From: Trachythela sp. YZ-2020
Lineage: Eukaryota; Cnidaria; Anthozoa; Malacalcyonacea; Clavulariidae
Direction: 5' to 3'
Length of the DNA: 64,000 nucleotides
Assembly: GCA_016169945.1 (NCBI GenBank)
Contig: JADLSH010000369.1
Span: 7,148,001-7,212,000, forward strand
Shown here one piece after another: positions 4,751 through 59,947 of this stretch. Within the stretch, counting starts at the first letter, position 1, and the number at the start of each line of letters is the position of its first letter. Below the pieces are notes generated by a model, which saw only the letters and a program-made list of their open reading frames with translations, searched no databases and was not told the origin of the DNA. A program made the translations under genes and the position numbers.

Positions 4751-4827
4751 ATCCACTACAGCCTGTTTCACGCAATAAGCGATCGATCGCGAGGATCGCT
4801 TATTGCGTTAAACAGGCTGTAGTGGAT
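4751..4827. repeat. 34-bp-arm hairpin
   Basis: Arms at 4,751-4,784 and 4,794-4,827 are complementary with very few mismatches and a loop of about 9 bases (centre gatcgatcgcgaggatc). Confidence 0.85.
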
Positions 4828-7749: not shown

Positions 7750-10700
7750 CTGTAGATAAGCAACAAATATATTAAAAAGGTATTAGTAGTTAGTTTGGAT
7801 ACAACTACAATTCATTGTTTGGCGGATTAGTGGGAATATTAGTCAGATTAGTTTTATTCACTAATCGTTATAGACTAATCACTGACGGACAGATCAGTTT
7901 TAGAACAAGAGTGAAATTCGCGGGCTTATCTACAGGGTGTCTAAAAAAAAAGGTCAGGCTTTTAGCTGTTGAATGACACGTCCAATATGGAGAAAAAATG
8001 AGCAAATACGAGTCCGATAAAAATTGTTTGTCGAAATCGCATATTTTCAGCTCTGTGCCTAATTAAAGCAGTGCATATAGCAAAAGAAAAGCAATTAATC
8101 ACGAATGTGTCATTTTTTATCGGGCTCGTGTTTGCTCATTTTCCCTCCAACGTGTCATCCAACAGCTAAAAGCCTGATCTTTATGATTATGAAAAAATTA
8201 CGTTCATGCACCGAGTAATTAACGCACAATGGCATGCTAAAGTTGGTTTTTAGACACTCGTAGTATTAAATGTAGGGCAACTATATATTTGGCATTCCAC
8301 CCAAAACTGATATTATCTTTATCCTGTACTATTAAAGACCAAATGTCTCCCTGTTTTCAATTCCGATACCCAAAAAATTCTAAGCTACCAAAGAAAGGTT
8401 TTAAAAGAAAAACCGGCCAAATGAAATACAAGAAAACACGCAATTAGATTAATTGTTGGCAGACGAGGTCAATTTGTAAGAAATCGTCTTCATGCATGTC
8501 CTGCAGACGTTTATGGTTGTTAGATTGACTGTCTATATATATTTAAATTTAAAGTAATGTTGAAGGTTGAATATGTAAGAAAACTTCTGACACTGACCTT
8601 TATAACTAAGGTTAAACACAGATGAATTTTGTGAAGGCCGTTTTCCACCTCAAACGTATCGTAACGTACCGTAGCATTTCCTTTTGTGTCGGAGTCATTA
8701 TAACTCTAGCCGAGTGTTCAGGAAACAAAGAAATGCGCTACGTGTCGGTACGATACAGTTGAAGTGGAAAACAGCCTTCAAGGCCGTGTCATATGCATGA
8801 CGTAGCTATATTCTGTGCTTTGCTACACGGCTAAATAACTAAGATCCGGGCTCACTGATCGAGCGTTTTTCCAAGCAAATAAACGCTATAATCAAGTCCT
8901 GGAAAAACTAGCAAAGATTCTCGCGCAAGATTCGTCTGATGTTTCCTCGAGTCATTGAATGTTTCCCCGATCGTTCAGCCTTGTATGGAAACCGCATTGT
9001 GGTGGAAATAGATTTTGCCTCCCTTGTTGAAAAAATGTTTCTGCAACAATGCTTCCTAGTTTGCCCTGCTTTACAAAAACCTACCGTTAAAAGAACTCCA
9101 CTATGTGCATCGACATTGGGCCAAGGATTCTTTGCTTTGCCTTGCTCTAGGAGAACATCGGGTACGATATCGTACAGTTTACTGACCACCTTAAATAGCG
9201 GATCATTTGGCATATACTTTAGACAGAACTCTCGCTGACACGTGTATCGTGGATCAGTTTTACGAAGAACAGCATGTCCGAAGCCTGGGATAACCTGCAA
9301 TGGAGATATCACAACTGATCAAAATAATTCACTACTACTTTATAGTCCGGATCAAAAGAGATGCAAGTCATCGCAAGTTTTAGATTCTGAGGCATGGAAA
9401 AGAGAGAATGAATGGATTGAACACAAAACGTCGAAGGGTCAGTTTACTAAAAATATACATGGCAAACTATTCATACATGTGCATTACAAATATACCACAT
9501 TTATCGCTTTTCACACGACACATTGTGTATTTCACATTCCGTGTTTATCGAATTCAATCTCTACTTTCTCAGGAGTCAAAACTTGCGATGACTTACGTTC
9601 TCGTTTGAGAATGCCTTAAAAAAGGTTACAAACAATTTTTTTAACCCAACAAAAATTGAGGAGAAGCCATTAATGGCTTACAATTCTGTTATAGCTAAAC
9701 TATGACCAGGTTGTCGTATCCACATTGTCCAATGAGTTCCCGCGTTATCTAGTCACGTAACACGTTAAAAGTCAACAATTCGCCCAGCAGAATCAATCAA
9801 GAAACGCCGGTATTATTTTCAAATACTATATGTAGAAGTACTTACAGCAGTTTTGAGGGTTTCGACACAATAATTTTCCACTTCTTCTGTAGTAGGATCT
9901 TGGCCAAGATTTTCCACCAGCTTAGTCAGCCAAATCAATACTTCCTGCCAGAATGAAACAACAGTTGTTGGAAAATGAATGCATAAATACAGAGTTTTAG
10001 CATGCAAAATAATTCAATGTCAATACGGTGTGTGATGTGGTTGCTCCATCAATATTAAAAACGTTTCCGTGCATATTAAGTACGTTTACATGCTGCGATT
10101 TATCGGGCCGATTTCAGACGCACTTTAATGATATTTGAAAAATATGTGGCAAACATCATCTGACAACAACATCAACTGAAAATATTCGTCATAACATTGA
10201 GTAAAACCTAAAATGGGCCGACAGATCGCAGCGTGTAAACGTACCATACGCGACTGGAAAATATCTTTAACTAAGGCAATTTGGTGGTGAATCAAACAAG
10301 AAGCAAGCATAAAATGCAAGGACTTACAATATCTCACTTACGTTTTCGTTTGATCATGGCTTACATGTATTAAGCCCCGTACAGACGAGCAAGTTTTCCT
10401 TGACACGTTTTATTTGCCCGTGTGTACGGCAAAAAATTGACAAGTTTTCCTTGACAAGGAGCCTTGTTCAAAAGCTAGTCATGCCAGCTTTCGAACAAGG
10501 GAAATTGTTCGTGTGTACGGCCGACAAGGAAAACTTGACAAGGAAATGCGCAATACGCCACTGCACTCATCTCAATGCACCATTGCCACTATTAACATGA
10601 AGTATGCACTCGTGTCGTTAATACACTGGCTCGTAAAACTTGTCAAAGAAAAAACGTTTGCCGTACACACGAACAAATAAACTCGACAAGGATCTTGTCA

Positions 10701-13700
10701 AGGAAAACTTGCTCGTCTGTACGGGGCTTTAGTTTTAGTTGAGCTACATTCCTGGCAAAAATTATCGTGGACAGCGCGTGCGATAATAGAGAGCTCAAGC
10801 AAGCGACGTTTTTGATTCACGAACGTCAACCGGAAGTAAATCGAGCTGTTATATATGACGACAGCAGTTCTTGTTTGAAATCACGAACGGGAAATTAGAT
10901 TGACTGCCGTTCTTGATTTCAAGCAAGAACTGCTGACGCCATAATCAACGGCTAAGTTATGTGCACGTGACGTCCGTGTTGTCAAAAACGTCACTTGCTT
11001 AAGCTCTCTATTATGTATTCAGTCCTTGCAAGTGACGTCACCGAATGTCATGTTTTGTTTGGCTTCCGCCATTTTGAGTGGCAAATATGTGCGAGAATTT
11101 AGAAAGGCCATATTCTGCAGAATTCAATCAGGCATTATCACTGCTGTCTGGAGTCGTCGCGATGAATACACGCTTACCGATCATTTTCTTGCAAGAACAG
11201 CAAATGTCGCCCCCTTCCCCCTTTTCAATGTTGAACAGCATACAAATTGGTTCGAGGTAATGGTTTGTTAAATTCAAAGCGAAAGCCAACATTGGGCAGG
11301 AGGATGAGTGAAAACATGGAAACATATTTATATATGAGTGGTGATATTTTTGTTTACAGCTAAGTGTCAACATAATTTTTGCCATGATTGTACTTGGAAA
11401 TATAAATTTCACGTTCTACATACTTGATTAGCAAGACCATGTAGAGGACCAGCAAGTCCATTCATTCCAGCAGCAAAACATAGATATGGATCAGACAGAG
11501 CACTACCAACTAGATGTGTACAATGAGCGCTCACATTACCACCTTCATGATCAACATGAATAGCCAAGTACATACGTAACATTTCGGCAAAGTTTGGACT
11601 ATCAAATCCAAGCATGGTGGCTAGATTCTTTGACCAATCGTTTTGTGGATCTATAGGAGCAACTTTACCATCTCGATAAACATTGCGGTATATTACAGCC
11701 GCTACTGTTGGGAGTTTTGCAATCAAATCCATGGCGTCTTCGAATGCATACTAAATGAATGGAAATATGGTAACCAGACTATTATACAGCCATGCAGATT
11801 CAGTTTAAACTATAGCGAAATACTTCATTACTAAATGAATGGAAATATGGTAACCAGACTATTATACAGCCATGCAGACTCAGTTTAAACTGCGAAATAC
11901 TTCATTAAAGCCTTGTTTTCACTAGCGATGCATGTATAAGCGTACATACCTCTCCCCAGCTCCCATCCCCAAGCGCGTACGAAGACAAAACAGAAATAAT
12001 GTTATTTGAATATGCTTTTGTCGTGTTTGAATTTGCTTTTGTTCTGTCAAAAATTATGCTTTAATCGCACGCTTACTGTATATCGAAAATTACGTCGCAT
12101 GCTTTACTGCGTTCCCTTGTAAGAATTCACTAAGAACAACCATTACAGTAACTTTTACAACAAAGTTCTTACTTGACAATTACACGTTTCACACCTCAAA
12201 ACAAGCGATCATCGGTTTTGCTCGTGGTTTAATAGTTAACTTAAAGGTCTCAGCAAATACATTCTTTGTTCCACTTCAAATTGATCGAATTGGTACGAGT
12301 ATTGACGCATAAAGCTATTTCGTTTCGATACGACATTGCGATTGTTGTTTTGAAGTGTGAAACATGTAGTTGTCAAGTGACAATATTTTTGCAAACCTTT
12401 TTCGCGGCGCAGCGCAACACTTGAATGCAAATGGTAATAATTACCTCCCAAAATTCGCTTTTCTTTATTCCGTTGCTGTATCCTTTAGCAAAATGACTCT
12501 CACTGTTCATGGCCGTAACTGCAGCACTCAACTGACTCATGGGATGAAGTTCACTGGGAAAATCATTTAACAGTTGAACAACATGAGGGGGAAGATCAGC
12601 ACGAGCAGCCCATTCTTCAGATAAGGATTTCGCCTGAAATGTACAACATAATGAATACTGTACATATTTAATGCACCTACAGAAATCTGTTCAGTGTATT
12701 CCCTCGTACGTCTCATATGATAACAACTCTTTCCTAGATTTGTATTTATGTACAACGTTTTTCTACGTAAACCTTCGATGGTTAAGCTCCATGCATTCAC
12801 GTCTTATCTATTTACCACAGCATATATTATTATTATTATTATTGAATATATAAAACCGCACCAACGGTGAATTACTTTATATTTACATAAGGTATTGGAA
12901 GTTATAAAATCAAATATTTACAATTAAAACTATTTTAAAAGCAATTAATTTAATGTTGATTGACAATTTGAATCATGGAAGAAAAAAAGCTATATTGAAA
13001 TCGATTAGTTCTACATTTAAACGATGACGTATATCGTGAATAACATCACCCACTATGTACAGTGCACAGTAAGACATATTCCTTGAAGTTTCTGGATGTC
13101 ATGACATGGAATTATTTAATAGTCTTAATTCTTAAATCAAATTAAATATAGTGAACGGTCAAGAAACACCATGTTCATTGATTTAATTTTATTCATCTAT
13201 TTATAGATATTATAACCATTAATCTATTAAATATACAAGAAAACATATTTGCTTGCTCCAACAAAAAATACAGTCATTGTAACGAAAAGGACTGAGAACT
13301 ATGAATGACTGGTCCTTAATGCAATATTGCTGGATACTTCTATAAATAAACAGCTGTTTGGTTCTTCACTTATTATAACATTGTCATGCAACAGTTGTAA
13401 AATTACACTCTTAAACAAAATTTGGCTAAGTTTTACCTGTTCAGCATTTGGTACTTCTCCAGTTATCAACAACCAAAACATGGCCTCAGGTAACATTTGG
13501 TCACCACCTTCAGCTGTTGGCAAAAGCTGAAACATTTTAACAAATTGTTAAATACTTAATAAATATACTTCATAACTGTGAGCCAGTATGATTGTTTTAT
13601 GTTGGACAATTAACAATAATGATGAAGAGAGGACGCACAACTATAGGCATGGTAGGCTTCACAAACTCACAGCTCTAGGTGATAGTTATTTTGTAGTAAC

Positions 13701-16700: not shown

Positions 16701-19700
16701 TTGAAAAATAAGATGGCCTAGATGGTTAAAAAGGCCCATCAATGGCCCAATATTATATTTTTGTTTGATAAATGCCATGTCAAAACAAAATCCAAATTTT
16801 GGATTTGATATGGCAATTGGCAGCCCTCCTGCACCCCCCTTGGCCAAGGCTAGGAGGGGTGCGCACCCCCCTGTAAATCCATCCCTGCATTTTGCCAGCT
16901 AGTAATTAAGTGTCACTTACGCCATATGTCATGATCCGCAAGGCAAAAAGCAAGGACACAAACATCAAAGGGACCAACACCAAGTGAGACATCTGGTTCA
17001 TATTTAATCTGCGCTAAGTGGCAACCACTCCATTCAACATTTTACAAGCCATACATGTGACATTTGAAATAGATTTAAAACTGTAACTCTTGGAAACTTG
17101 GTAACTCTTGGAAACTTCCTAACAATTTTAGACAGTGGCGTACAGAGCGGGGGTGTACATTTTTAAAACAATGTCGGTAAATTGACCTTCGTCAGTTAAA
17201 ACGTATAATTTGAAAGTAACTTGGTCGGTAAATGTTAAAATTACAAACAACCACAGCCACAGAGCCGTCGGCAGTAATTTGGTCATCCAGGATTGTACTT
17301 CTTTTCATACTCTATCTAACTACAATCAACTCATCTGTAACAGTTTGTCGTTACTTTCACATCGTATATATATATCAGAAAGGAACAAAACTAATTCACC
17401 GACTCTTGTAATTGTGTACGGAGCGCATGAGGTTGTAAAAAGTTAAAAAGTGTGTTAAAAACCTTGAATTCTTAGGTTTTAGAAACTTCACAATTTTGAT
17501 TAAAAATCCTCTCAGGAAGCACGGAAAATACTCTTCTGAGGCTTCAAAAATGCAAAATTTTCCTGGGGGAGCATGCCCCGAGACCCTCTAGGTTCGGTCC
17601 CCCAATAAGAATTTGCTGCCGATGTCACTGAACCAAAATGCGCGACGGACTAGTGACGTTGTGCGCTCCCTGAGGTTTAGTAGCTATAACATCGCTTTTT
17701 TGCCCTGCGTCGTCGGTGTATTTTCGGTGAATTTCAGCCCGCCAATCCGAAAAAGCTTCTTACGGCACTGCATAATATCAAACTGAACCAACAAGCATAG
17801 TATTGCATCCTTTAATTTCTTCGTTCTGTTCAGTCATTAATACACAACTGCAAGAGGTCTATCTGTCATTGCTGGGAATTTTAGCACCCTACTGGCAATT
17901 TCAAATTTAAAAGTACAAAAACTGACAGCATAAGTTAATTTAATGTGTATTTTGAACACTGTTACTGACCTGATCGACAGTGTATTGTCCAACAACTTTA
18001 TCTGCATATTCCTTCCTAAACTCTGCAACTTCTTTCTGTTTCTCCGGGACAATAGTTTTCATAACATCTTTCAGACTCTAAACATGTAGTAAAATATGTC
18101 ATGTAGTCAAGTATGTCTACGTGATGTATTATTAAACATACCTATCTATTACCTAACCTTTGTTTCTATGTTGAATTTAGTATGAAGCGTTAACCTGGCA
18201 TTTGTGTTGACAACTACCAATATACTTTGCATGAAATAATTAGGTTAACATCACAGGAACTGTGTAGTCTTGGCATGAGTCACACCCTCAAGGCATTGGT
18301 TATAGAGAATGAATGGCAAGCAAACACATTGCTGATAAGCTAACATATAGCCACCTGGGGTAGTACTCTGCTTCCGCCCAACACTTTGTTGGAATGATAA
18401 GGTGCAGACGTTTGGTGACCTGTCAGGTCCTCACTGGATACGCTTAAGGTGACTCAGACAGGAATCCAAGTAACTCAAATCCCTATACCATTCTCTGACC
18501 AACTAACCATCAACACAGGCACGCGCATGGTGATGACAGATGTTAAACAGGGGCGGGGGTAATAAATCACTCCTCTGGTATTCCTAAGTAGAGTGATAGG
18601 GAGTGACAGTCGGCAAAGTTATCATAAATTGATTAATTTACCTGATGTAGAGGGAACCAAGTTGAACGGTTATTAGACAATGTATTGGAGTGTCTATTGT
18701 CTAATTATTATTGATCACAACACAGATGAATTGTCTAATTATTATTGATCACAACACAGATCAATTTGAGATATTTGTTGTTAAAAAGTTTCAACTACCC
18801 AGCTACAATCAGTGACATAATTATTGGACCGATTAGCCTGAAAAGGCAAAATTCCCCCCTTCCCCCCTTTTCAATGTTGGTAGTCTAACATGCATTTTCT
18901 ATGTTACATGCTATTGTCTCGTATTAGGCTGTCGATGCTTTTTCCAGCAGATAAACCAACATTGAAACGGGGGAGGGGGTTTACCAGTGAATTTTGCACA
19001 ATTGTGTACAAAAATACCCTTTCTATACAAGTGTCCCAAATTTCAATGTCACTGATTGTCTGAGTTTTTTCTTATGGCTTGCTGTTAGTTAGGAATTTGT
19101 TGGTATTAGTTTGGTAGATAATTAAGTCTTATAAATAGCTATGGTGGTTCTTTAAACATCGTTCTATCATATAAAGATGTGATTCGTATGAGATTGTACC
19201 CTAAAGCTACGTTTGCTGTAGATTTTTCTATCTATATATATATTTTATATATAGTGTAGCTTAAAACGCGCGCGCTATATTATTGTAATTTTGCGTGGCT
19301 GTAATACAAGCTATGCTTGCGGCACTATTTGAAATATTTATTATTGGCCGTTCAATGACACATCAACTATATATATGACTGGATCGCTTAATTATTTGCT
19401 AGCATGAATTACATTTCAAGTATTTGGACAAATACACTACCAAGTCTAATTTTACAAACAAAATGTGAATTACCTGTTTGTAGACAAGTAATTATCATGC
19501 GGGAAAGTCTAAAGAGCACAAGTAACCGCACGTCTCCACAAGTAACCATCTTTAAGCATTCAAATAAGATGCAATGTGTAGTTATTTTGGACAAATATAA
19601 CTGTCTAATGTTACACACAAATTGTGAATTCGCTATTTGTTGACGAATAATCATCATCCAAGTATAAATAGCGCAAGTTACCACAAGTAACCACAAGTAA

Positions 19701-22700
19701 CCATCAGTAAGCTTATATAAGTAAGTATATCATATATAGTTATTTAATCAAATGGTTACTTGTGGTTACTTGTGGTTACTTGTAAAAAAGTCTGTTATTT
19801 CTAGAAAAACACATGGTTACTTGGCATTAATATATATGTGTATTATATATGCATATATATATAATCTGTATATAAGCATAATATACGCAATAAACACAAC
19901 AATTTTGTTTGCATTAGCCACGGCTATAAGCATTATGTAATACGACACCAATGCATTAGTTAGGCAAATTTGCGAGATTTAAAATATATTTTGCTACTGG
20001 TATGCATGTATTCAGTAAACATTATACAACAATAAAATAAAATAAGTATGATAAGTATGAAATTAGGACTTCTTTCTCGGAGTTGCATAATTGCTCTTTT
20101 GAGTTTGCGCTCATCTCGTTGTGTCAATGATTTACGCCGACCTTGATAAGACTTTTTCAGCTTTTCGGTATTTTTATTATCAAACCGCTTAAAAACTCTT
20201 AGAAGGCTTGACTTTGACATGTTAACGCAATTTTCCGATACGAATATTTGAATTCGCGCCTCAGCAAGAGGGCTAAAGCTCGCTGCTCTGCAGTTAAATC
20301 GTGAATTCGTGCTATGTTTGGATATTAAAATGAAACTATTGTTACGCAATATAATTAATCTTGGAATGGTATCGACCTATCAATAGCTCAATTACCACTG
20401 AATTCTTGCTGAAAGTTTCATAAAGATATCTTGTTTAGTTTTCAAGTTACAGACATTTCAAAAGTATGATAACGCAGTAAAATACTCAGACAATCAGTGA
20501 CATAATTATTGGACCGATTAGCCTGAAAAGGCAAAATTCCCCCCTTCCCCCCTTTTCAATGTTGGTAGTCTAACATGCATTTTCTATGTTACATGCTATT
20601 GTCTCGTATTAGGCTGTCGATGCTTTTTCCAGCAGATAAACCAACATTGAAACGGGGAGGGGTTTACCAGTGAATTTTGCACAATTGTGTACAAAAATAC
20701 CCTTTCTATACAGGTGTCCCAAATTTCAATGTCACTGATTGTCTGAGTTTCTTCTTATGGCTTGCTGTTAGTTAGGAATTTGTTGGTATTAGTTTGGTAG
20801 ATAATTAAGTCTTATAAATAGCTATGGTGGTTCTTTAAACATCGTTCTATCATATAAAGATGTGATTCGTATGAGATTGTACCCTAAAGCTACGTTTGCT
20901 GTAGATTTTTCTATCTATATATTGTAATTTTGCGTGGCTGTAATACAAGCTATGCTTGCGGCACTATTTGAAATATTTATTATTGGCCGTTCAATGACAC
21001 ATCAACTATATATATGACTGGATCGCTTAATTATTTGCTAGCATGAATTACATTTCAAGTATTTGGACAAATACACTACCAAGTCTAATTTTACAAACAA
21101 AATGTGAATTCCCTGTTTGTAGACAAGTAATTATCATGCGGGAAAGTCTAAAGAGCACAAGTAACCGAACGTCTCCACAAGTAACCATCTTTAAGCATTC
21201 AAATAAGATGCAATGTGTAGTTATTTTGGACAAATATAACTGTCTAATGTTACACACAAATTGTGAATTCGCTATTTGTTGACGAATAATCATCATCCAA
21301 GTATAAATAGCGCAAGTTACCACAAGTAACCACAAGTAACCATCAGTAAGCTTATATAAGTAAGTATATCATATATAGTTATTTAATCAAATGGTTACTT
21401 GTGGTTACTTGTGGTTACTTATACCAAAAAGTCTGTTATTTATAGAAAAACACATGGTTACTTGGCATTAATATATATGTGTATTATATATGCATATATA
21501 TATAATCTGTATATAAGCATAATATACGCAATAAACACAACAATTTTGTTTGCATTAGCCACGGCTATAAGCATTATGTAATACGACACCAATGCATTAG
21601 TTAGGCAAATTTGCGAGATTTAAAATATATTTTGCTACTGGTATGCATGTATTCAGTAAACATTATACAACAATAAAATAAAATAAGTATGATAAGTATG
21701 AAATTAGGACTTCTTTCTCGGGTTGCATAATTGCTCTTTTGAGTTTGCGCTCATCTCGTTGTGTCAATGATTTACGCCGACCTTGATAAGACTTTTCAGC
21801 TTTTCGGTTTTATTATCAAACCGCTTAAAAACTCTTAGCTTGACTTTGACATGTTAACGCAATTTTCCGATACGAATATTTGAATTCGCGCCTCAGCAAG
21901 AGGGCTAAAGCTCGCTGCTCTGCAGTTAAATCGTGAATTCGTGCTATGTTTGGATATTAAAATGAAACTATTGTTACGCAATATAATTAATCTTGGAATG
22001 GTATCGACCTATCAATAGCTCAATTACCACTGAATTCTTGCTGAAAGTTTCATAAAGATATCTTGTTTAGTTTTCAAGTTACAGACATTTCAAAAGTATG
22101 ATAACGCAGTAAAATACTCAGACAATCAGTGACATAATTATTGGACCGATTAGCCTGAAAAGGCAAAATTCCCCCCTTCCCCCCTTTTCAATGTTGGTAG
22201 TCTAACATGCATTTTCTATGTTACATGCTATTGTCTCGTATTAGGCTGTCGATGCTTTTTCCAGCAGATAAACCAACATTGAAACGGGGAGGTTTACCAG
22301 TGAATTTTGCACAATTGTGTACAAAAATACCCTTTCTATACAAGTGTCCCAAATTTCAATGTCACTGATTGTCTGAGTTTTTCTTATGGCTTGCTGTTAG
22401 TTAGGAATTTGTTGGTATTAGTTTGGTAGATAATTAAGTCTTATAAATAGCTATGGTGGTTCTTTAAACATCGTTCTATCATATAAAGATGTGATTCGTA
22501 TGAGATTGTACCCTAAAGCTACGTTTGCTGTAGATTTTTCTATCTATATATATATTTTATATATAGTGTAGCTTAAAACGCGCGCGCTATATTATTGTAA
22601 TTTTGCGTGGCTGTAATACAAGCTATGCTTGCGGCACTATTTGAAATATTTATTATTGGCCGTTCAATGACACATCAACTATATATATGACTGGATCGCT

Positions 22701-25700
22701 TAATTATTTGCTAGCATGAATTACATTTCAAGTATTTGGACAAATACACTACCAAGTCTAATTTTACAAACAAAATGTGAATTCCCTGTTTGTAGACAAG
22801 TAATTATCATGCGGGAAAGTCTAAAGAGCACAAGTAACCGCACGTCTCCACAAGTAACCATCTTTAAGCATTCAAATAAGATGCAATGTGTAGTTATTTT
22901 GGACAAATATAACTGTCTAATGTTACACACAAATTGTGAATTCGCTATTTGTTGACGAATAATCATCATCCAAGTATAAATAGCGCAAGTTACCACAAGT
23001 AACCACAAGTAACCATCAGTAAGCTTATATAAGTAAGTATATCATATATAGTTATTTAATCAAATGGTTACTTGTGGTTACTTGTGGTTACTTGTGCAAA
23101 AAGTCTGTTATTTCTAGAAAAACACATGGTTACTTGGCATTAATATATATGTGTATTATATATGCATATATATATAATCTGTATATAAGCATAATATACG
23201 CAATAAACACAACAATTTTGTTTGCATTAGCCACGGCTATAAGCATTATGTAATACGACACCAATGCATTAGTTAGGCAAATTTGCGAGATTTAAAATAT
23301 ATTTTGCTACTGGTATGCATGTATTCAGTAAACATTATACAACAATAAAATAAAATAAGTATGATAAGTATGAAATTAGGACTTCTTTCTCGGAGTTGCA
23401 TAATTGCTCTTTTGAGTTTGCGCTCATCTCGTTGTGTCAATGATTTACGCCGACCTTGATAAGACTTTTTCAGCTTTTCGGTATTTTTATTATCAAACCG
23501 CTTAAAAACTCTTAGAAGGCTTGACTTTGACATGTTAACGCAATTTTCCGATACGAATATTTGAATTCGCGCCTCAGCAAGAGGGCTAAAGCTCGCTGCT
23601 CTGCAGTTAAATCGTGAATTCGTGCTATGTTTGGATATTAAAATGAAACTATTGTTACGCAATATAATTAATCTTGGAATGGTATCGACCTATCAATAGC
23701 TCAATTACCACTGAATTCTTGCTGAAAGTTTCATAAAGATATCTTGTTTAGTTTTCAAGTTACAGACATTTCAAAAGTATGATAACGCAGTAAAATACTC
23801 AGACAATCAGTGACATAATTATTGGACCGATTAGCCTGAAAAGGCAAAATTCCCCCCTTCCCCCCTTTTCAATGTTGGTAGTCTAACATGCATTTTCTAT
23901 GTTACATGCTATTGTCTCGTATTAGGCTGTCGATGCTTTTTCCAGCAGATAAACCAACATTGAAACGGGGAGGGTTTACCAGTGAATTTTGCACAATTGT
24001 GTACAAAAATACCCTTTCTATACAAGTGTCCCAAATTTCAATGTCACTGATTGTCTGAGTTTTTTCTTATGGCTTGCTGTTAGTTAGGAATTTGTTGGTA
24101 TTAGTTTGGTAGATAATTAAGTCTTATAAATAGCTATGGTGGTTCTTTAAACATCGTTCTATCATATAAAGATGTGATTCGTATGAGATTGTACCCTAAA
24201 GCTACGTTTGCTGTAGATTTTTCTATCTATATATATATTTTATATATAGTGTAGCTTAAAACGCGCGCTATATTATTGTAATTTTGCGTGGCTGTAATAC
24301 AAGCTATGCTTGCAGCACTATTGAAATATTTATTATTGGCCGTTCAATGACACATCAACTATATATATGACTGGGTCGCTTAATTATTTGCTAGCATGAA
24401 TTACATTTCAAGTATTTGGACAAATACACTACCAAGTCTAATTTTACAAACAAAATGTGAATTCCTGTTTGTAGACAAGTAATTATCATGCGGGAAAGTC
24501 TAAAGAGCACAAGTAACCGCACGTCTCCACAAGTAACCATCTTTAAGCATTCAAATAAGATGCAATGTGTAGTTATTTTGGACAAATATAACTGTCTAAT
24601 GTTACACACAAATTGTGAATTCATTTGTTGACGAATAATCATCATTCAAGTATAAATAGCGCAAGTTACCACAAGTAACCACAAGTAACCATCAGTAAGC
24701 TTATATAAGTAAGTATATCATACATAGTTATTTAATCAAATGGTTACTTGTGGTTACTTGTGGTTACTAAAAGTCTGTTATTTCTAGAAAAACACATGGT
24801 TACTTGGCATTAATATATATGTGTATTATATATGCATATATATATAATCTGTATATAAGCATAATATACGCAATAAACACAACAATTTTGTTTGCATTAG
24901 CCACGGCTATAAGCATTATGTAATACGACACCAATGCATTAGTTAGGCAAATTTGCGAGATTTAAAATATATTTTGCTACTGGTATGCATGTATTCAGTA
25001 AACATTATACAACAATAAAATAAAATAAGTATGATAAGTATGAAATTAGGACTTCTTTCTCGGAGTTGCATAATTGCTCTTTTGAGTTTGCGCTCATCTC
25101 GTTGTGTCAATGATTTACGCCGACCTTGATAAGACTTTTTCAGCTTTTCGGTATTTTTATTATCAAACCGCTTAAAAACTCTTAGAAGGCTTGACATGTT
25201 AACGCAATTTTCCGATACGAATATTTGAATTCGCGCCTCAGCAAGAGGGCTAAAGCTCGCTGCTCTGCAGTTAAATCGTGAATTCGTGCTATGTTTGGAT
25301 ATTAAAATGAAACTATTGTTACGCAATATAATTAATCTTGGAATGGTATCGACCTATCAATAGCTCAATTACCACTGAATTCTTGCTGAAAGTTTCATAA
25401 AGATATCTTGTTTAGTTTTCAAGTTACAGACATTTCAAAAGTATGATAACGCAGTAAAATACTCAGACAATCAGTGACATAATTATTGGACCGATTAGCC
25501 TGAAAAGGCAAAATTCCCCCCTTCCCCCCTTTTCAATGTTGGTAGTCTAACATGCATTTTCTATGTTACATGCTATTGTCTCGTATTAGGCTGTCGATGC
25601 TTTTTCCAGCAGATAAACCAACATTGAAACGGGGGAGGGGGTTTACCAGTGAATTTTGCACAATTGTGTACAAAAATACCCTTTCTATACAAGTGTCCCA

Positions 25701-28700
25701 AATTTCAATGTCACTGATTGTAGCTAATGCGCTTTGTAAATCATATTTCAGGGTCAAATTCTATTATATCTATGGTCAAAATTGAACGGAGTGAAAACAC
25801 GTGAGAGCAATGTGTCTCTATTAAGATTAACAGTCACAGATATACATTGTCTGTTCTTACATGATACTTCAATGTATGTAACGAGCATTTGAAGGTTTCA
25901 ATATGAGGCTTGTTAACAGGGGCGTACCGAGCGGGGGGGGGGGGGGTTGTTCATACTCTAGCTAGTTTTTGCAGATTATCTAAAAACTTGGGAATGAGGT
26001 TGTAAAAAGTTTAAAAAGTGCGTTAAAAATCTTGAATTCTTAGGTGTCAAAACTTCACAATTTTTATTAAATATCCTCTCAGGAAGCACGGAAAATGCAC
26101 TTCTAGATTACGCCCCCAATAACAATTTGCTGAACCAAAATGCGTGACGGACTAGGAACGTTGTGCGCTCGCTGAGGCTTAGCAACTAACATCGCTTTTT
26201 TTGCCCTGGGTCGTCTGTAAATTTTGGAATGAATGGAAACGTTCTCGGTACGCCACTGTTTGTTAATTACACCCGTTTTCAAAATTACGCGACTAGCCCA
26301 GGTTATGTCAATTCGAAATTCAAAGTGTTTACTGTTAAGCCTTCAAATGTGTGTTTCCTTAGGAAGATTATTAACTTTTGTAGCCTTCATGTTTAGAGTT
26401 TGGAATTATTCTCAAGATATTTTAGTGACAGTTATTGTAAAATACAAAATTATAGTATGACGCTATAGTCTAGCGCAAGCGGGTTTGACACATAGTTAAA
26501 TTATGCTTTTTGACTTTTTCGAACTTTCAAAGTCATTTACGGGATAGATTTCTGCTGTGCTAATACTGATATATATCGCTTTATTTCGATTAAAAATGCT
26601 CCTTCAGGTGTTAAATATGGTTTAAAATTTATTTTGTTTACGTTCGCTATTTTTAGTTCCCGTGACATAAAACTGACTGACATTTCAACTCAAATTATTT
26701 TAGGGCAGGTCGCGTAATTTTGAAAACGGGTGTAATGGGATTGGCTGATCATATTAAAAATTGTGAAATGCTCTTCTTAAAAACATTGAAGTTGCATGTG
26801 AAATTGGCCCTAGAATTATGAGAACTGGTAAAACAACAGGATAGCCAAAACTGAAAAGGCTATAACAGTACATTTGGAGCTATAACAGTACATTTGGAGC
26901 TATAACAGTACATTTGGGGCTATAACAGTACATTTGGGGCCAGTTGTACGAGGGTCGGACAATGTTATCTTCTGGATTGTGAATTTTTCACCTTGTGTAA
27001 AAATGCCTGAAAACTGTTAAACAGATATGGACCACACAATAAATATATATGCCATTGCATGAAATAGTTTGGCAGCAGGACCGGCTGACTATTCCAGTCT
27101 ATTAAGATGCTTAACATATACAACTTGCCAATGATATTACAACAAACAGGGCACAATTAAAATGTACATCTTGATTAAAATGTATCAGATCTCGGGAGAT
27201 CCCTTCTGGATCGGAAAATATGTCAACTGCATCACTAAATATGAAGATACATGGAAAGCTGATAAGCCAACTAAGAGTGGAGGAACTTAAAAATGAACTT
27301 GAACTCCGAGGTTTAAAGACAGGAAATAAAAGAGAATTACAGGACTAGTTGAAAACCCAACTCGAAACAAGGCTTCATCGGTGACAGGAAGCGAAACTTC
27401 AGAAATTGACAATTCAAGCTGTTCAGCTCAAAGGCAAAGTGACTTTAAGTGAGGACAACGACTCGGCTCTAAAAGATCTCAACGAACTTAAAAGCTATGT
27501 GAAAAACTTAGAAGATTCTATACGTGCCAAAGTCAACACCCTCTCAACTGAAATAGACATGATCAGAGTCGAGAATCGCCAGTGTCCTGTGGCAGCTGAT
27601 CTCGTCAACGACCTACGAAATGAAAACTTACGTTTAAAGAATGAAATTAATGAGCTGCGTGAAAGAAATAATAATTTATGTTACATTATGTCCGACCTGA
27701 ACACTAGAGTTAAAGATGTTGAAAATGAAAACAGGTGCTTGGTTAGTACTCTTAAAACTCTACAGGTTGAAAATTCAAACGCCCCAAGTCCTATTGTAAA
27801 TGATAAAGTTGAGATGACCAATAGAGACAGTGATTCCAACCGATTGATCCACGTGGGAAATACTACCATGATGCCGATACAGAATCCCATCCCTTTATCA
27901 GATAATAGATTTGCTGTTTTAGATGTGTTGATGACGCTGATAGAGAAGACGTTCCAGCTAACGAAAGTGTCATCATTGTTGGTCAGTCACCCCAAACACC
28001 AAATCAAAATCACCATCGACCAAGGGCAAGGAGTAAATATTATGGAGGTGGCCCACCACACGAGAGTTCACCCCCTGGTAATCTAAAATCGCAAGTCTCA
28101 CACCACGTCAATAGACTCAATTTTAAGGAATCTCCAAGGTAGAAAAATGTCAAACAAGGATAAAATTAAGGTATCCTCTTTCCCTGGTTGTACGACGTTA
28201 GATATGAAAGATCATTCCAAGCCAATAATGCGCAAAAACACAGCGGAAATAATTGTCCATGTTGGGACAAACAGTCTGCGTCAACATAACGAGGAAACGG
28301 GATTTAGAACAAAAGCCATGGGATGATGCTAATTTACAAACTAACCCAGATGACATGTGGTGTACTTGGAAAAATCTCTTAATGGAAAGTATTGATAAAT
28401 TTGCACCATACAAAAGTAAACGTGTCGGTAGAAAAAGATCACCATAGATAACTAGCTAGTGAATTGTTGCAAAAAATGCGAAAACGAGATTACCTGAAAA
28501 AACAGGCAGCGACTAAAAATGATGACGCGTTATGGCAAGAAATCAGACGAATAATGCAATTAGACAAGCCAAACAAGATTATTTCATACAAAACCTTGAG
28601 TTTAACAAAACGGTTCTCGCAAGTGTAACAATTCGCAAGGTATCTCTGAAATTAAAATTGGCGAACAAACTATAAAATCTCCTACCAAAATAGCTGAGAC

Positions 28701-31700
28701 TTTTAATGAATATTTTACCAACATAGGCACAAATCTGGCCAATCAGATACCACCAAGTGATATTGAGCCTGAATTCTATCTTGAGCTTTCAGTCTTAGAA
28801 CCCCTTCTGTGAGTACAGTTTGCGCATTATTAAGTAAACTTACCGAGAAAAAAGCCACGGGACTTGATAAAATTCCGTGCAAGCTTTTGAAGATTGTGCT
28901 AATTTCATGAATAATAATTACCTCAGTAGTTACTAGGCCACTTACTGAACTCAGTATTTAAGGACGCCATGTTGTTATTTATTTAGTGTAGAGTAAAGCC
29001 TTGAGAAATGAGGTTGTATTTTCTGTATTAGTCTATTTATTTACAAATATATTTATGTCAATTTACTCTACACTACCTGTGTGAAGAAAGAATCGAAGTA
29101 CAAGCATGGACAAAGTTCTACGACCAGAGAGATTCAATACGAGTCCGAATGCTCAGAACGCTTCAAAATCATGGAGGCATTGGTTGGCAACGTTCGAGAA
29201 TTTCGTTGCAGCAATCCCGGGCGAGAGCGTGGACAAATTAAACGTCTTAATCAATTATGTATCCTCGGATGTATATGAATTGTTTTGCGAGGCAGCTACG
29301 TACGACGAAGCTATAAATTTGTTGAAAAATTTGTATCTGAAGACGCCTAATGTGATATTCGCACGACACAAGCTGGCCACGCGAAAGCAGCAATCCGGAG
29401 AGTCTTTGGACGAGTACCTTCAAGAATTAAAGATCTTAAGTAAAGACTGTAATTTTTCCAGCGTTACAGCCAACCAATATCGCGATGAAGCAGTGCGAGA
29501 TGCGTTTATTGCTGGGTTGGTATCCAGGAACATTCGTCAGCGCTTATTAGAAAATAAAACTTTAAATTTACAAACTGCTTTTGAGCAAGCACGTGCTTTG
29601 GACACGGCTCAACGAACATCAGAAACATATAATAATTTTCCTACTTCAGCTACTACTACAAAGGATAGCAACCAACAGCAAGGTAATTTGCCAGATTCAA
29701 CGCCACCAAAGGCTCAAGAGGAGTATATCGATAACAAACGTCAGGACTCTAGCGGAAGGTATGTAGCGTTAACATCGCAAAGTATAAAGTGTTTTTTCTG
29801 TGGCAATAAGCTACACCCCCGAGCATTATGTCCCGCTAGAGAGGCTAATTGTCATAAATGCAAAAAGAAAGGACATTTTCAGAGTGTGTAAATCTGTAGC
29901 TGCTATTGAATCGCAGTCATCCTACCTAACACTTGCTTCATCCAAACACTCGGCCGCTGAATCATTAAAGAAGGCCTGTGTAGAAATTTTAATTAACGGG
30001 AAGTCGGCACAGGCGTTGATAGACTCGGGGAGTACACATAATTTCATTCACCCAGACATAGCCAAATCACTTGGGTTAGTGGCATATCCTACTCAAGAAA
30101 AAGTAACAATGGCCTCTTCTTCTCACTCATCTAAGATCGAAGGGTATTGTCACGCAGACATAATTTTAACGGGAAGAGTCTACACAGATATTAGGTTGTA
30201 TGTTTTATCAAACTTGTGCACGGACGTTATCCTAGGACAGAATTGGCAAGAACAGCATGAGAGTATAACGATATGTTTTGGAGGGACAGCTCCACCCGTG
30301 AATATATGTGGTCTATCTACTTTGCATGTTGATCCCCCACCATTATTTCAGTTTCGTGCAGCGGAATGTAAACCAATTGCTTCGAAATCAAGAAGGTATT
30401 GTTTGGAAGATAAAGAGTTCATTTCCACTGAAATTGATAAATTACTTAAAGAAGGAATAATTGAACCAAGTGACTCCCCATGGAGGGCACAAGTTGTAGT
30501 GACGCGAAATGAAAATCATAAGAAACGATTGGTTATAGACTATTCTGAAACAATAAACAGATTTACTCAACTCGATGCGTATCCAATGCCCAGAATTGAC
30601 GATACAGTCAATCGAATTGCCCAATATACTGTTTTTAGTACTGTAGATCTTAAGAGTGCTTATCACCAGGTACCTATTAAACAGGAAGAAAAGATGTACA
30701 CTGCATTTGAAGCAAATGGTCGATTGTATCAATTTCGTAGAATCCCATTTGGGGTGACTAACGGGGCCGCTGCTTTTCAAAGAACGATGGACAACTTTAT
30801 TTCTGAGGAAAACTTGGAAGATATATTCGCCTATTTGGATAATATCACTATTTGTGGTCGGGATCAGGCCCACCATGATGAGAACCTCGAGAAATTTATG
30901 GAAGCAGCTAAGAGGAGAAGTTTGGTATTCAATGAAGGTAAATGTGTGTTTTCTACAAGAACAATAAGTATTCTCGGTAGTGTGGTTTCAAAAGGGGAAA
31001 TTAAAACAGATCCGGAAAGGTTGAAACCATTGCAAGAGTTACCCCCACCAGTAAACTTGAAGTCACAAAAAAGAGTAGTCGGCCTATTCTCTTATTATTC
31101 ACAGTGGATTAAAGATTTCTCAAAGAAGATTAGACCCTTGTCTCAAAATACTGTGTTTCCTTTGCCAGAAGAAGCTCTGAGAGCATTTAATTTGATTAAA
31201 GAGGATATAGAGCATGCAGTTATCGGGGCTATTGATGAAAGTCTCCCCTTTGAAATAGAGACTGGTGCATCTGACCACACTCTTTCTGCAGTATTGAATC
31301 AACAAGGGCGTCCTGTAGCTTTCTTCTCAAAAACATTAAACGGTCCTGAACTAAAACACTCAGCAGTTGAGAAGGAAGCAGCAGCCATAGTTGAAGCAGT
31401 ACGTAAGTGGAAGCATTACTTAACTGGAAAACATTTTAGGCTTATAACAGACCAAAAGTCGGTTGCTTACATGTTTGACATCAAACACCATAGTAAAATC
31501 AAAAACGACAAAGTAATGAGATGGAGAATAGAATTGTCGATGTATGACTTTGACATTATATATCGAGCGGGAGAGGAGAATATACCAGCGGATGCTCTTT
31601 CAAGAGTAATCAGTATGTCTCTTACGATTGATAAACTACATGAACTACATAGATCATTATGTCATCCGGGCGTAACGCGAATGACACATTTCGTTAAAAG

Positions 31701-34700
31701 TCGAAATCTACCCTTTTCAGTCGAGGATGTAAAGCGCATGACACAAACCTGCAGGGAATGTCAAGAATGTAGACCGCAATACTACTCTCCAGAGCCCTCG
31801 CAATTGATAAAAGCTACACAACCGTTCGAAAGACTGAACATAGACTTTAAAGGTCCTGTGCCCAGTAACAATCGATGTCGATTTTTGTTAACTATTATTG
31901 ATGAGTATTCTAGGTTTCCCTTCGCATTCCCATGTGAAGATGTTAGTGCTCGAACTGTCATCAGATGTCTCTCGACACTTTTCTCTATGTTTGGGATGCC
32001 AACTTTTATCCATACGGATCGTGGCTCGGGATTCATGAGCTCGGAGTTAAATAATTTTTTATTACAGAAAGGGATTTCAACTAGCAGAACAACAAGTTAC
32101 AACCCACAAGGAAATGGGCAAGTCGAACGGCTGAATGGAACGTTATGGAAAGCTATCACCCTAGCACTCAAGACGAAAGGTCTTCCCACTAGCTGTTGGC
32201 AGGAAGTATTGTTGGATGCCCTTCACTCCATACGGTCCTTGCTTTGTACAGCGACGAACGCGACTCCGCATGAACGTATGTTTGCTTATCAACGAAAATC
32301 GACCAGTGGAGTCTCGGTGCCATCCTGGTTAACGACACCTGGTCCTGTGTTACTGAAACGATACGTAAGAAATTCTAAGTACGACCCCTTGATAGATGAA
32401 GTTGACCTGCTGGAAGCCAACCCGCAATATGCTCATGTGCGGTTTCCCGATGGGAGAGAGGATACAGTATCAATTAAACATTTAGCTCCACCTGGTAACG
32501 TGGAAGCCTCGGTTGGCAACGTAGATCAATCCTATCCCGTCGGTTCTGCTGAAAATCATAGAGAAGTCGATCTCGAGCAAGATGGGGCGGAAATCCAGAT
32601 AAAAGACGCCGAAAGCACCGCAAGTCCTGATCACCAATCGCTGCGTTTACGACAGAAAGCAACGAATGGGTCAACAGACAGTACTGGAGATGATAATCAA
32701 CCCCAACATCTCCGTCGATCTGAGCGATTAAGAAAGGCACCAGATAGACTAACCTTAATGACATTTGTTTAGATTTAGGAGTTTGAATATATGAACTACA
32801 TTAGAGACACTTAGATTATTTAATCTGAACTACATTAGAGACACTTAGGCTATTTAATTTTATATTACTTAGTTTATTTATAATATTGTTTTATTATTAT
32901 GTAGGGGAGAATGTGCTAATTTCATGAATAATAATTACCTCAGTAGTTACTAGGCCACTTACTGAACTCAGTATTTAAGGACGCCATGTTGTTATTTATT
33001 TACAAATATATTTATGGCATCCCATATTGCAGTGAGTGAGGCACTGCGATATTTGAGCAATCCATTATCACAGGATTTTATCCACATGAATGGAAGCTCG
33101 CTAAAGTGACACCAGTGTTCAAAAGAGGCACAGAATCGGATGTAAATAACTATAGACCAATTTCTATTTTACCGATTGTACCAAAGATCTAAAGATGAGA
33201 AAATAGTCTATGACCAGCTGTCAATCAGGTGTTCGCTCACTCCATATAGCACGTTGCACTGGCTGTCACAGCTTTACTTGAGGCCACTAACAATTGGTCA
33301 GTCAATATAGACAAGGGTTTTCTAAATGGAGTTATTTTTATAGACCTGAAGAAAGCCTTTGATACTATTGACCAGATCATTTAAAGTGCTTATGAACGCA
33401 AAATGGTTAGTTAGTTAGTAAGTTCTAGATTAGTTTTTGGCTTAGACTTTTAGTTTCGGAGATATAAAGGCTCAAACAGGCAAATTTTGCCATTTTCTGA
33501 AAAAAAGTAGCGCGACCAAAATATCACCAAGGGGCCTGGATCCCAGGAACCCAACTTTGATAAACAACTAATAGTCAGGTCGCTTAGTGCGACTTTTTAG
33601 GATTACTGTTACCGGTCGGATAAAAGCAACAAATTTTGCACAAAACCTTCTCGGAGTCTATTGATTAATTTTAGCCTAAGAGCCCTCCATGGATATTCTC
33701 AGTATTCCCGTAAAATGTTTCAATGATTTTGTGAAATTGGAGAATTCGTCGAAATCTAAGATGGCCGACATTAATGATAAAGAAAATACATTTCTCTAGT
33801 TCTAGTCGTCGTGTAAAGGCCAGGTTTGTTCCAAACCAGGGGTTTTTCATGTCACCGATTCTGATTTTAGACATAAAAATATCAAAAATACGCTAAATGT
33901 GCTTGCGCCTATCTTGCTACATTGCTGTCTTCGTAAACAACACAACGAAACCTTCGAAACTCTTCGAACGACGTTACACGCTATTATATTATTGTCTAGT
34001 TTTTCGATGTTTTAACTCAGATATTTCTATTTTCAAGTCCACTAAAATCATTTGTTTTAATGGCGGGTTGACGGCAGCACCCGGATAAGTCGGATGGAGC
34101 CGGCGCTAGACTGGAATCGCTGTATCATTTGCCAGCAAGACACCGCTGAACCTTTGAAATGTCCTTTGAAGAGTCCTCATGGTTCAAGTGCGCAGAAAAC
34201 AAATGTATATACATCATTTCTGCGCAACAGTTCCAGTTAAGCTGTGTTTTGGAAAAGATGAAAGTGATGTTAATTTTAAAATTTAACAATACTAAGTTAG
34301 AGAAAGCATATGATGCAGATACCAATCTACGAGCCATGATAACAGAGTTAAATGATACCCAGCATCTGACTAGAATTGTGGGAGGATCTAATTGCAATGG
34401 AGGCAAAATATCATCTGAAATGCCAAGTCAATCTGAAATCGATACCGCAGTCTCATTCGGATGTCAAATCAAGCTGCAAAAAATGAACGAGTCTATAGCA
34501 TTCGTAGAGCTGACAAGCTATATGCTGAAGGAAAATTTAATGATCCTTTCTTCAGTCGCAACTGTATGGATGAATCTGTGATAAACACAGTCCGCACTCT
34601 GGAAGCCACTGAGAAGAAGCAGAAGACCGCACCACACTATCCATGAACCGATCAAGAGGAATTATCTGTCTAAAGATCAAAGTTCTTCAGAATAATGTAT

Positions 34701-41432: not shown

Positions 41433-44400
41433 CTGACAAAATTGTGGTAAAAAACGTCACATGTATTTTAAACCAATAAGAATTAAGGAAGAATCAGTAT
41501 CACGTTACAATTGTCACATCTATTATACACGTTTAGTTTTCATACCTTGCCTAGATCTTAATCTTTCTCGCTAGAGATAAATAATTAAATACAGAACATT
41601 TGAATCACCATCACAAGAATGAAAATAGCAACTTTGAAAAAATATGAAGATGTCTCAGTATAACACATTAGAATGGAGGGCTGTTAATAAATATACAAGT
41701 CGTTCATGTTAATTGTACCTGATCTAGTTCCTCTAAAGCCTCACTAATCGCTTGCTCTAATCCTATCCTTGTCCTCTTGCCTCTACAGAGGATAGACAAA
41801 AATAAGATTTAGTTGCAGAGCACCTACATGTGAGCCCCACTAAACAAAGAGAGACCACTCTCCACTGCGACTGGTTTGCCTACCATTTAGCATAACAAAA
41901 GTGGCATTTCTGCCTCGTACAGATTTGTGCTCCATGCAGATTTGCTACGCCGCTGCAGACGTGTGGCGGTTCCTTAGGGTGCGTGGATCACTCTCTCCTC
42001 CGTAGAGGCTTTTAATTTATAAACCAGAAAAATGTAAGGCATACGGGTAATTCTGGTGAATGCTCGCGGGAGGCGGGATACTGTGGACACAGTACTCGAA
42101 AAAGCAGGGTCAGCTTTCGTTCCTTGCGTGTCGTTCCGCGTAACGCAGCGGCGTAGCAAACTAAAACGGCTGGGTACGAGACAGATGCCATCTATAGTCA
42201 CGTTCTAGGCTTGATTACCAAAGTGACGCTCCAGTGATCGGACTGTTCCATTGTCTTTCCATTATTTTGAAAATCTTACTGTTCTCCATGCCATCCAGTC
42301 ATTCATTGTTTGATTTATTTGTGAAATTATACAAGTCATTTCAGTGATCCAGTCGAATTACGTTGGGCTTAGCCTACGGTGTATACCCTCGCTAGGTTGG
42401 GCTCGACTATCGAGTTGTCGAAAATGGCGACTCGACTTCACTATTGGAGTACAAGTAGCGAAGTAGCGTCATGTTATGCTAATAAACCTGCACCTGAAGA
42501 CAATACATTTCAACAGTAAAGGTTTGAACAATGCAAATAATGTAAAACTTGCGTAACATTACCAGTTGGTATACTTAACTTCCTCCATTCCTAGTGACTC
42601 ACCATGAAACAAATCTGTCAGGAATACCAAGTTACCAGCTAACTAGCATTCTATCCTATCCTATGCTATATATAAAACGTCTATGCGTACCTATATTTTC
42701 TTTTCCTGCCTTTATCATCCAGTGTTTTCAAACCATCAGTCAACGTCTTTAGTTTTTCCACTTCTACTTGACTGAAATTATGATCTCCAAACCACATCAC
42801 CCATTTCTACATGAAGTATGGCAACTTAATTGACACGTGGGTTAAAATGAAGAAGGAAATTATCTACGTTTCAGTATTACTATTATGATTAATATCCAAT
42901 GCAATCCTGCATATATATAACAAAATAATTATAGTAAAATCTGCGGCAGAAATATCGGCAAATATCAAATTCCTGATGATATGACACAAATTTACACACA
43001 TAACATCATTTACCCCAGTCTCACAAAGCCAGACTTTTCACCTCTGCCGCCCATGGATCATGCCACATCGTTGGTGGGGAGGGGATTGGTAAAGAGCCTG
43101 TATTGCGAATATATAATTACCTTGCCAATATCAGCAGCAGCCTTACCAACATCACGTTCATGAACAATCTTGCCAGGCCAAGACGGCAGACCTCTTGCTT
43201 GAGCCCACACTATATCACCAATTGTAAACTCCACAGGAGCTTCAGACGTTTCCATCTCTTTATTTATAACTTCTTTAGTACTTTTAGTATCTTAAAACAT
43301 TGACAATATGTCCCAATGTTAAATCTATTTTTGCAGTTATGGGTATGTCACTACCTACCTACATACAGTCATCTGTCTACATACCTATAATGGCTACCTT
43401 AATAGTCGTCCTACCTATACCGACCTACCTACCCAGGGCCCTAGCTAAGGAGTAAGGGGGGTATTGGGGGATGCCGCACCCAGAATTTCTTATATTCGGA
43501 AATTGAAACGTCTCAGAGAAAACGACGTTTGTATATAGTATTCAATAACTATGAGATTCCTATTCAGATAATTGAATCCTATTCAGAAGTACGAAGTTTC
43601 AATCCTGCAAAGTTATAAAAGCAAATTGTTTGTTTATCGAGATCATAACATTTGAATGTGTCGCAAATACGAATTTCACTTTCCGAATTAAAATTACTAA
43701 ATTCGGGAAACCTGGTAAATTGGGAAAACCTTGTGGTCCAAGGCCATTATAGAGATATAAACTGAAAATTTAAAACTGCTTAATTGAAGAAAGAAAAATC
43801 CCTTTCACCGTTCTGCAGCCGTATTACATATATCTAGTTGAAGAACTGCCTGAAAAAATGTGACGTTGTCCTTGATGAGCTAGTTTATAGAATACACCCA
43901 TTAATACAATCGATAATTACGTCACAAATCCCTTCTTAGCCCGGGAGCCTCGTCAGTTCTCATGAATCGCGAGCCAATTAGCCGAAAGTCTTGATTCATG
44001 AAAGCGAGGCTTCCAGGCCAAGGATGTATTCGTGACGTAATTATCGAAAAGGTGTATTCTTTCCAATGCGGCCGTTCGATCATTCTAATTTTGTTGCAAA
44101 GTTTGAACTTTTTGTCAAAGATGACAAAAGAATGTGTCAGAGACGAAATTATAAACAATAGGTACGCTAAGCGTACATGTATTTGCACAAAGTGTTGACG
44201 TTAAGCATGCCTGTAGATTTAATTTTTGTGGAGGTAGCCACTCTTCGAATGGAGCTATGCTATGCTGGCGTAGCCATTAACTCCAACCTTAGATAACTAG
44301 CTCCACGTGATTTTTGGAGTTGTTAGCCAGTAACTCCAGGTTTAGGGAGCTAGCTCCACTGGCGCCACACGATTTTTGGGTTGGCCTGTAACTCCAGAAT

Positions 44401-59400: not shown

Positions 59401-59798
59401 CCGCTCTAATATTATGAGAGCCAGCTATGCAGGCTTCCCATCCCCATCCAGATAGCAGAAATTTCCTCCATAGGTAGGTGTTTTTTTCCAGAACAACACA
59501 TTTTTTTAATTTGTTTCAAAGTGAAGTTGTTATACCTTATTTGAATTGCATATAATTTATTGCTATGATTGTGGGTTGTTACAGTAAATTATCTATTAAG
59601 CCGCAGGTCATTTATTAATTTCAGGCACATTTGAGGGGGGATAGCTTATTGTAGAGTGGATCTTGTTAATTTAGTAGAAAACATTATATCTGATCAGTGC
59701 ACATGTGTTTCTTTGTTGTCAAGGGGAGGGGCTTAATAGAGAGGAATGGGCAGAATAGATTTCTTCTAAAAGGGAGGCTTATTAAAGAAGGGGCTTAA

Positions 59799-59947
59799 AG
59801 GCTCTTTTCCACTCGTCGCAAAACCAACTCGCAAACTCGCTGCGAGTTCTTGCATGTAATTAAAATAAACTGTCGAGCATTGTGATTGGATGAAAGTACT
59901 CGCAGCGAGCTTGCGAGTTGGTTTTTGCGACGAGTGGAAAAGAGCCT
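59799..59947. mobile_element. 149-bp near-perfect palindromic MITE
   Basis: Ends AGGCTCTTTTCCACTCGTCG and its complement, with arms of about 50 bases that include caactcgcaa and gctgcgagt. TAA (or TTAA, both fit) flanks each side. A three-base TAA would suit PIF/Harbinger. Confidence 0.88.

Follow-up and report, generated by a model that had tools for sequence, protein, structure and literature searches.

Positions 18805-25721 of the 64-kb window (the whole stretch of DNA analysed here) are occupied by an array in which five copies of a palindromic MITE-like element (A, 251-255 bp) alternate with four copies of a block carrying a transposase relic (B, 1,379-1,430 bp), head to tail and in a single orientation (A-B-A-B-A-B-A-B-A). 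We lean towards a model in which the array is the recombination product of one A-B-A composite insertion at a single target site. Most likely, it represents a recent case of a known process, the conversion of a transposon into a tandem repeat, here through recombination that copied one composite.

Results

The alternation of five A with four B in the same orientation, which an earlier note on this DNA had described, is borne out both by the self-matches of the whole array (97.0, 97.5 and 98.3% over 5322, 3632 and 1952 columns, respectively) and by alignment of the units. All units read on the plus strand. A1 (18805-19059) and A5 (25467-25721) form the outer ends and are identical at 255 of 255 positions; between them, A2 (20490-20742), A3 (22122-22372) and A4 (23803-24054) separate the blocks B1 (1430 bp, 19060-20489), B2 (1379 bp, 20743-22121), B3 (1430 bp, 22373-23802) and B4 (1412 bp, 24055-25466). 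With just four units and one further A, the array falls short of satellite DNA in the sense of a long, many-copy head-to-tail array, and an Rfam search over 18400-26300 gave no match at the gathering score. B1 is AT-rich, with a GC fraction of 0.32 against 0.40 and 0.37 in the 2-kb flanks. Two repeats lie close by. A 34-bp repeat in two copies (18696-18766) ends 38 bases to the left of the array, and a direct repeat of up to 300 bp flanks it with one copy per side (17427-17724 and 25994-26225; 69% identity in the gapped blastn match, 83% as a mean over alignment columns), the two copies probably belonging to one dispersed repeat family.

Every A starts with ACAATCAGTGACAT and ends with ATGTCACTGATTGT. 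The exact 14-mer at the end of A occurs five times per strand in the window, always inside the array, and its 13-base core, with up to two mismatches allowed, gives 11 matches (10 within the array), whereas shuffled sequence yields 2.6 on average. A1 folds as DNA into a strong hairpin (-49.2 kcal/mol, z -7.3), a stability that none of 200 shuffles equalled. By its size (251-255 bp, below about 500 bp), its 14-bp perfect TIR and this hairpin, A is a palindromic MITE-like element, in agreement with the earlier description. The longest stop-to-stop frames overlapping A1 and the left end of B1 have 59 and 55 aa, at a minimum of 45 aa. The idea that A is a deletion derivative of the transposon in B found no support, A and B sharing no blastn match at E 0.01. 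Nor is A a piggyBac-type CMITE, its ends being ACAATC and its flanks AGCT or CTCAG/CTGAG, with neither TTAA nor a CC[C/T]T end. The TIR pattern of A had no match in the viral_contigs collection.

Elsewhere in the window, sequence like A is confined to 34 bp at 11200-11233 (85% alike). This stretch resembles the core of A and by eye seems to have a degenerate inverted partner nearby; the repeat search found no inverted repeat there, and the stretch is perhaps a decayed relative of A. Six more palindromic MITE-like stretches were noted at 4751-4827, 7949-8182, 10783-11014, 43910-44047, 51227-51437 and 59798-59948, and the window holds further inverted-repeat pairs beyond these.

On its minus strand, each B carries a frameshifted and cut-off Tc1-like DD34E transposase, of which 80-96 codons at the N-terminal end are left. 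In tblastn with P0002, a 365-residue transposase, B1, B3 and B4 were each matched in two frames. The relic in B1 (20041-20315) matches residues 1-34 at 20315-20214 and residues 35-96 at 20220-20041 in another frame, that in B3 (23354-23628) the same two residue ranges, and that in B4 (25024-25292) residues 1-34 and 38-96; the relic in B2 (21723-21947) matches residues 1-82 and has small deletions of its own. Of 152 candidates, 13 proteins matched a read-through of the first 90 residues of the relic at E <= 1, led by P0001 (1.3e-29, 72% identity), and P0002 likewise has 72% identity over this 90-aa read-through. Two of the 13 carry a species name (Dendronephthya gigantea and Paramuricea clavata), a hint of a cnidarian host, although transposons say little about the host that carries them; 10 of the 13 were taken into the alignment of transposase relatives. 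P0002 itself matches the Pfam families DDE_3 and HTH_23 above the cut-off and HTH_Tnp_Tc3_2 below it, and its catalytic triad is D163, D263 and E298, with 34 residues between the last two. This DD34E pattern is a mark of the Tc1 group. By transposase homology, the relic in B is thus that of a Tc1-like DD34E transposon, and the previous assignment of a transposase relic to B stands.

The relic has no intact catalytic domain, similarity to P0002 ending, with frameshifts, at residue 82-96. Its codon 1 lies 174 nt from the right end of B, which we take to be a plausible distance to a transposon 5' end; the repeat search found no inverted copy of the 5' region of the relic in B. For the B1 frame, Pfam gave no match at E 0.01 and, when opened to E 10, a single one (DUF6694, E 0.066), and PDB gave seven matches at E up to 10 (best 0.1), with no transposase among them; the transposase call therefore rests on the protein homologues and tblastn. 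The transposase alignment pattern had 28 matches in genome_contigs and 8 in viral_contigs, of which none was confirmed, and DNA of relatives is indeed not expected in prokaryote and virus collections for an apparent animal element. The remaining ~980 bp of B contain a diverged tandem pair of ~163 bp (75%) and an inverted set of CAAGTAACCA repeats.

The ends of B abut the ends of A directly. The A/B joint reads TACTCAGACAATCAG, and all eight joints are alike, save that in the T-run of B one T is replaced by C in B2 and one T is missing in B3. A complete target duplication was found at none of the inner joints, across all inner A copies, which read AAAATA/CTCAG...CTGAG/TTTTTT (slashes mark boundaries), one base short of a TA duplication; alternatively, the same joints can be read as a longer MITE with TA at one flank and TT at the opposite one. 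The two ends of B form an inverted repeat (AAAATACTCAG and CTGAGTTTTTT) that matches at 10 of 11 positions in B1 and B4 and at 9 of 11 in B2 and B3. Among 20 million random window pairs, 365 reach 10/11 and 4683 reach 9/11, figures that must be read in light of the stretch having been picked after the data were seen. In all three inner copies, the ends of B lengthen the perfect TIR of A from 14 to 20 bp (ACTCAGACAATCAGTGACAT; A2, 20484-20748; A3, 22116-22378; A4, 23797-24060), whereas the outer boundaries of A have the 14-bp TIR. The earlier account of the ends had overlooked both the absence of inner duplications and this extension of the TIR of A by the inverted repeat of B, a feature for which any model must account. 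Because B and A are joined end to end, the A copies do not appear to come from separate insertions.

At its outer ends, the array reads cccAGCT/ACAATC...GATTGT/AGCTaatg. The flanks can be understood either as a TA duplication within an 8-base palindrome (T18804 plus A18805 on the left, T25721 plus A25722 on the right) or as a 4-bp duplication of AGCT (18801-18804 and 25722-25725). Neither is strong alone, because in 2 million random position pairs TA..TA has a frequency of 0.7% and a direct repeat of any 4 bp one of 0.5%. The proposal that the array sits in a single TA thus holds insofar as a complete A stands at both ends within a short direct repeat, and remains ambiguous between TA and AGCT. 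A solo A with TA flanks, if found, would identify A as a Tc1/mariner MITE, and one with 4-bp flanks would argue that it is not; a solo A ending in CTCAGACAATC would make the inner copies the full-length form. Similarly, a solo B bounded by CTGAGT/ACTCAG with its own duplication would make B an element.

Substitutions are few (2-7 per 1361-1429 aligned sites between pairs of B, 0-2 per 251-255 between pairs of A), which suggests that the array is young. Among the B copies, indels predominate. Relative to a majority sequence built from the four rows, in which ties occur, B1 has no indels, B3 a single deletion and a single insertion, and B4 seven deletions; B2 combines one insertion with five deletions, a 44-bp one and four that are smaller. 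B4 also has 4 transitions, and three places differ between B1 and B3. The majority of variants occur in B2 alone or in B4 alone, and no stepwise duplication ladder is visible. In the G-run of A, the outer copies A1 and A5 read 5G-A-5G, and the inner copies read 4G-A and then 4 G (A2), 2 G (A3) or 3 G (A4). Given the distinct variants of B2 and B4 and the three differences between B1 and B3, the units appear to be real separate copies rather than a false duplicate. The excess of deletions, some of them in homopolymers, leaves room for consensus errors in the inner units, and single-base differences therefore deserve little weight.

Several further features were observed in the window. A tandem array at 61284-62305 has a period of ~62 bp with repeats ~94-98% alike and is open in several plus-strand frames with a repeating peptide like KELPPLPFFKERTSSSPILQG. 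A Gypsy-type element (28891-33002) has two overlapping open frames, with protease, RT, RNase H and integrase matches above the cut-off and a gag match below it, and has a 95-bp direct repeat on either side, the two copies having a single mismatch. A citrate synthase exon lies at 8911-9318, and a 1078-aa open frame on the minus strand (47166-50402) has 11 homologues at 34-54% identity, 3 of which have a PF00855 match.

Discussion

In the model that we favour, B would be a 1.4-kb cassette comprising, from a dead Tc1-like transposon, the 5' region together with the ~90 initial codons, with its two ends fused directly to ends of the MITE-like A. Two near-identical copies of A in direct orientation would have bracketed this cassette, and unequal crossing-over through A-A pairs would have multiplied the A-B unit to four; alternatively, the multiplication step might have involved an A-B circle that replicated and recombined back via A. 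We infer the order of these events, and the use of A-A homology as their substrate. The single orientation throughout and the A at both outer ends support a composite origin. The lack of complete inner duplications together with the uniform joints argues that the copies arose by DNA copying or recombination, not by repeated insertion. Moreover, a separate G-run form in A1 and A5 is expected if the inner copies share one inner ancestor and the ends escape exchange. Against this model, the G-run is a homopolymer in which the differences may be consensus errors, and the private variants fit a single burst, for instance by rolling-circle copying, equally well.

The earlier note had offered two routes, an A-B-A composite amplified by unequal exchange and an A-B circle entering a resident A. 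Both would yield the observed end state, and neither accounts for the initial fusion of A with B. In the second route, an A-B circle from another locus or made by a rolling-circle mechanism would have entered a resident A by recombination and brought in several or all of the B units in one step, which we consider possible but distinctly less probable than a composite origin. It explains why a short direct repeat is present at the outermost ends only and, if the A of the circle and the resident A came from different loci, also why the TIR is 20 bp at inner and 14 bp at outer boundaries, a length difference that favours this route a little. The star-like pattern of private variants suits one burst, and for Bari1 clusters circularisation followed by rolling-circle copying has been put forward (PMC8909793). 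However, A1 and A5 have a common G-run form that sets them apart from A2-A4, and after a single crossover with a circle only one of the two outer A would be expected to keep the resident form, so that this pattern favours the composite a little. We speculate, as an improbable extension, that A and B, fused TIR to TIR, travel as one chimeric mobile unit in the form of an A-B circle, which is captured by a resident A and seeds arrays at many A sites.

It is very improbable that the copy number or the tandem structure is an assembly artefact. The many small deletions in the inner copies, several of them in homopolymers or short repeats, are as in an unpolished long-read consensus, but the distinct unit variants (the 44-bp deletion of B2, the transitions and deletions of B4) go beyond a false duplicate, and the flanks are not duplicated along with the array. 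Slightly less probable still is the reading that the longer inner form (TIR CTCAGACAATCAGTGACAT) is the real MITE, which inserted at a TA in B-like DNA and was amplified, its outer ends being shortened at a new site; although the inner copies come within one base of a TA duplication and have a 20-bp perfect TIR, this reading requires one altered duplication base common to all copies and does not account for the two outer ends breaking off at one and the same inner base, with AGCT next to both. Finally, MITEs can nest, and the joint would also fit a clean insertion of A at AG/CT within ACTCAGCTGAGT, AGCT being the outer site too, but we regard it as extremely unlikely that every A inserted on its own next to B copies or between them, the inner joints having no complete duplication and being the same in all copies, and several insertions needing an identical loss of duplications.

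Precedents for such an array come from other genomes. In Acropora, full-size MITEs (CMITEs) form tandem arrays, one of them with gaps between elements, in which elements and intervening sequence are highly similar, and growth by replication slippage rather than separate transposition was inferred (PMC2872659). These arrays resemble the present one in combining full-size tandem MITEs with similar spacers, and to call such a structure unparalleled is therefore too strong. They differ in that CMITEs are ~100 bp long, with CC[C/T]T ends and TTAA (piggyBac type), whereas A has ~255 bp, an ACAATC start and no TTAA, and in that the spacer here is a 1.4-kb transposase-relic block (PMC2872659). Bari1, a Tc1-mariner element of Drosophila melanogaster, forms heterochromatic tandem clusters with TIR-TIR joints that lack two bases (CA) at the left end, for which circularisation and rolling-circle copying were proposed (PMC4877112, PMC8909793, PMC9659126). 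Like the present array, Bari1 clusters are a case of a Tc1-like element in tandem; however, they consist of tens of directly joined copies in heterochromatin, whereas in the present array the alternation is between a dead fragment and a second element that is smaller and of another kind (PMC4877112, PMC8909793, PMC9659126).

Xenopus Xstir and miDNA4, the latter a Tc1/mariner MITE, are composites of MITE and satellite and similarly unite a MITE and a tandem repeat in one structure; in those cases the tandem repeat is internal to a single MITE or originated from its interior, while here complete MITEs lie within the repeat unit (review, PMC12628747). At inversion breakpoints of Atlantic cod, tandem MITEs are present as highly similar copies at one locus, as is A here, but these are hAT-derived with internal repeats of 167-169 bp, and the accessible part of that report does not describe an alternating foreign block (PMC12368964). 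Among the titles and abstract openings that searches of an open-licence library brought up, we found no array of complete MITEs that alternate with a transposase relic and are closed by a target duplication.

With its few units, low divergence, intact ends and readable target site, the array looks like an early stage in the conversion of a transposon into a satellite. The end-to-end joint of two different elements is the part left unexplained. If the chimeric circle unit is real, it would be a route by which a fragment of a foreign transposon becomes, through a MITE, a dispersed satellite. Young arrays such as this one can test unequal exchange against circles as the source of the first tandem units, which old satellites hardly can.
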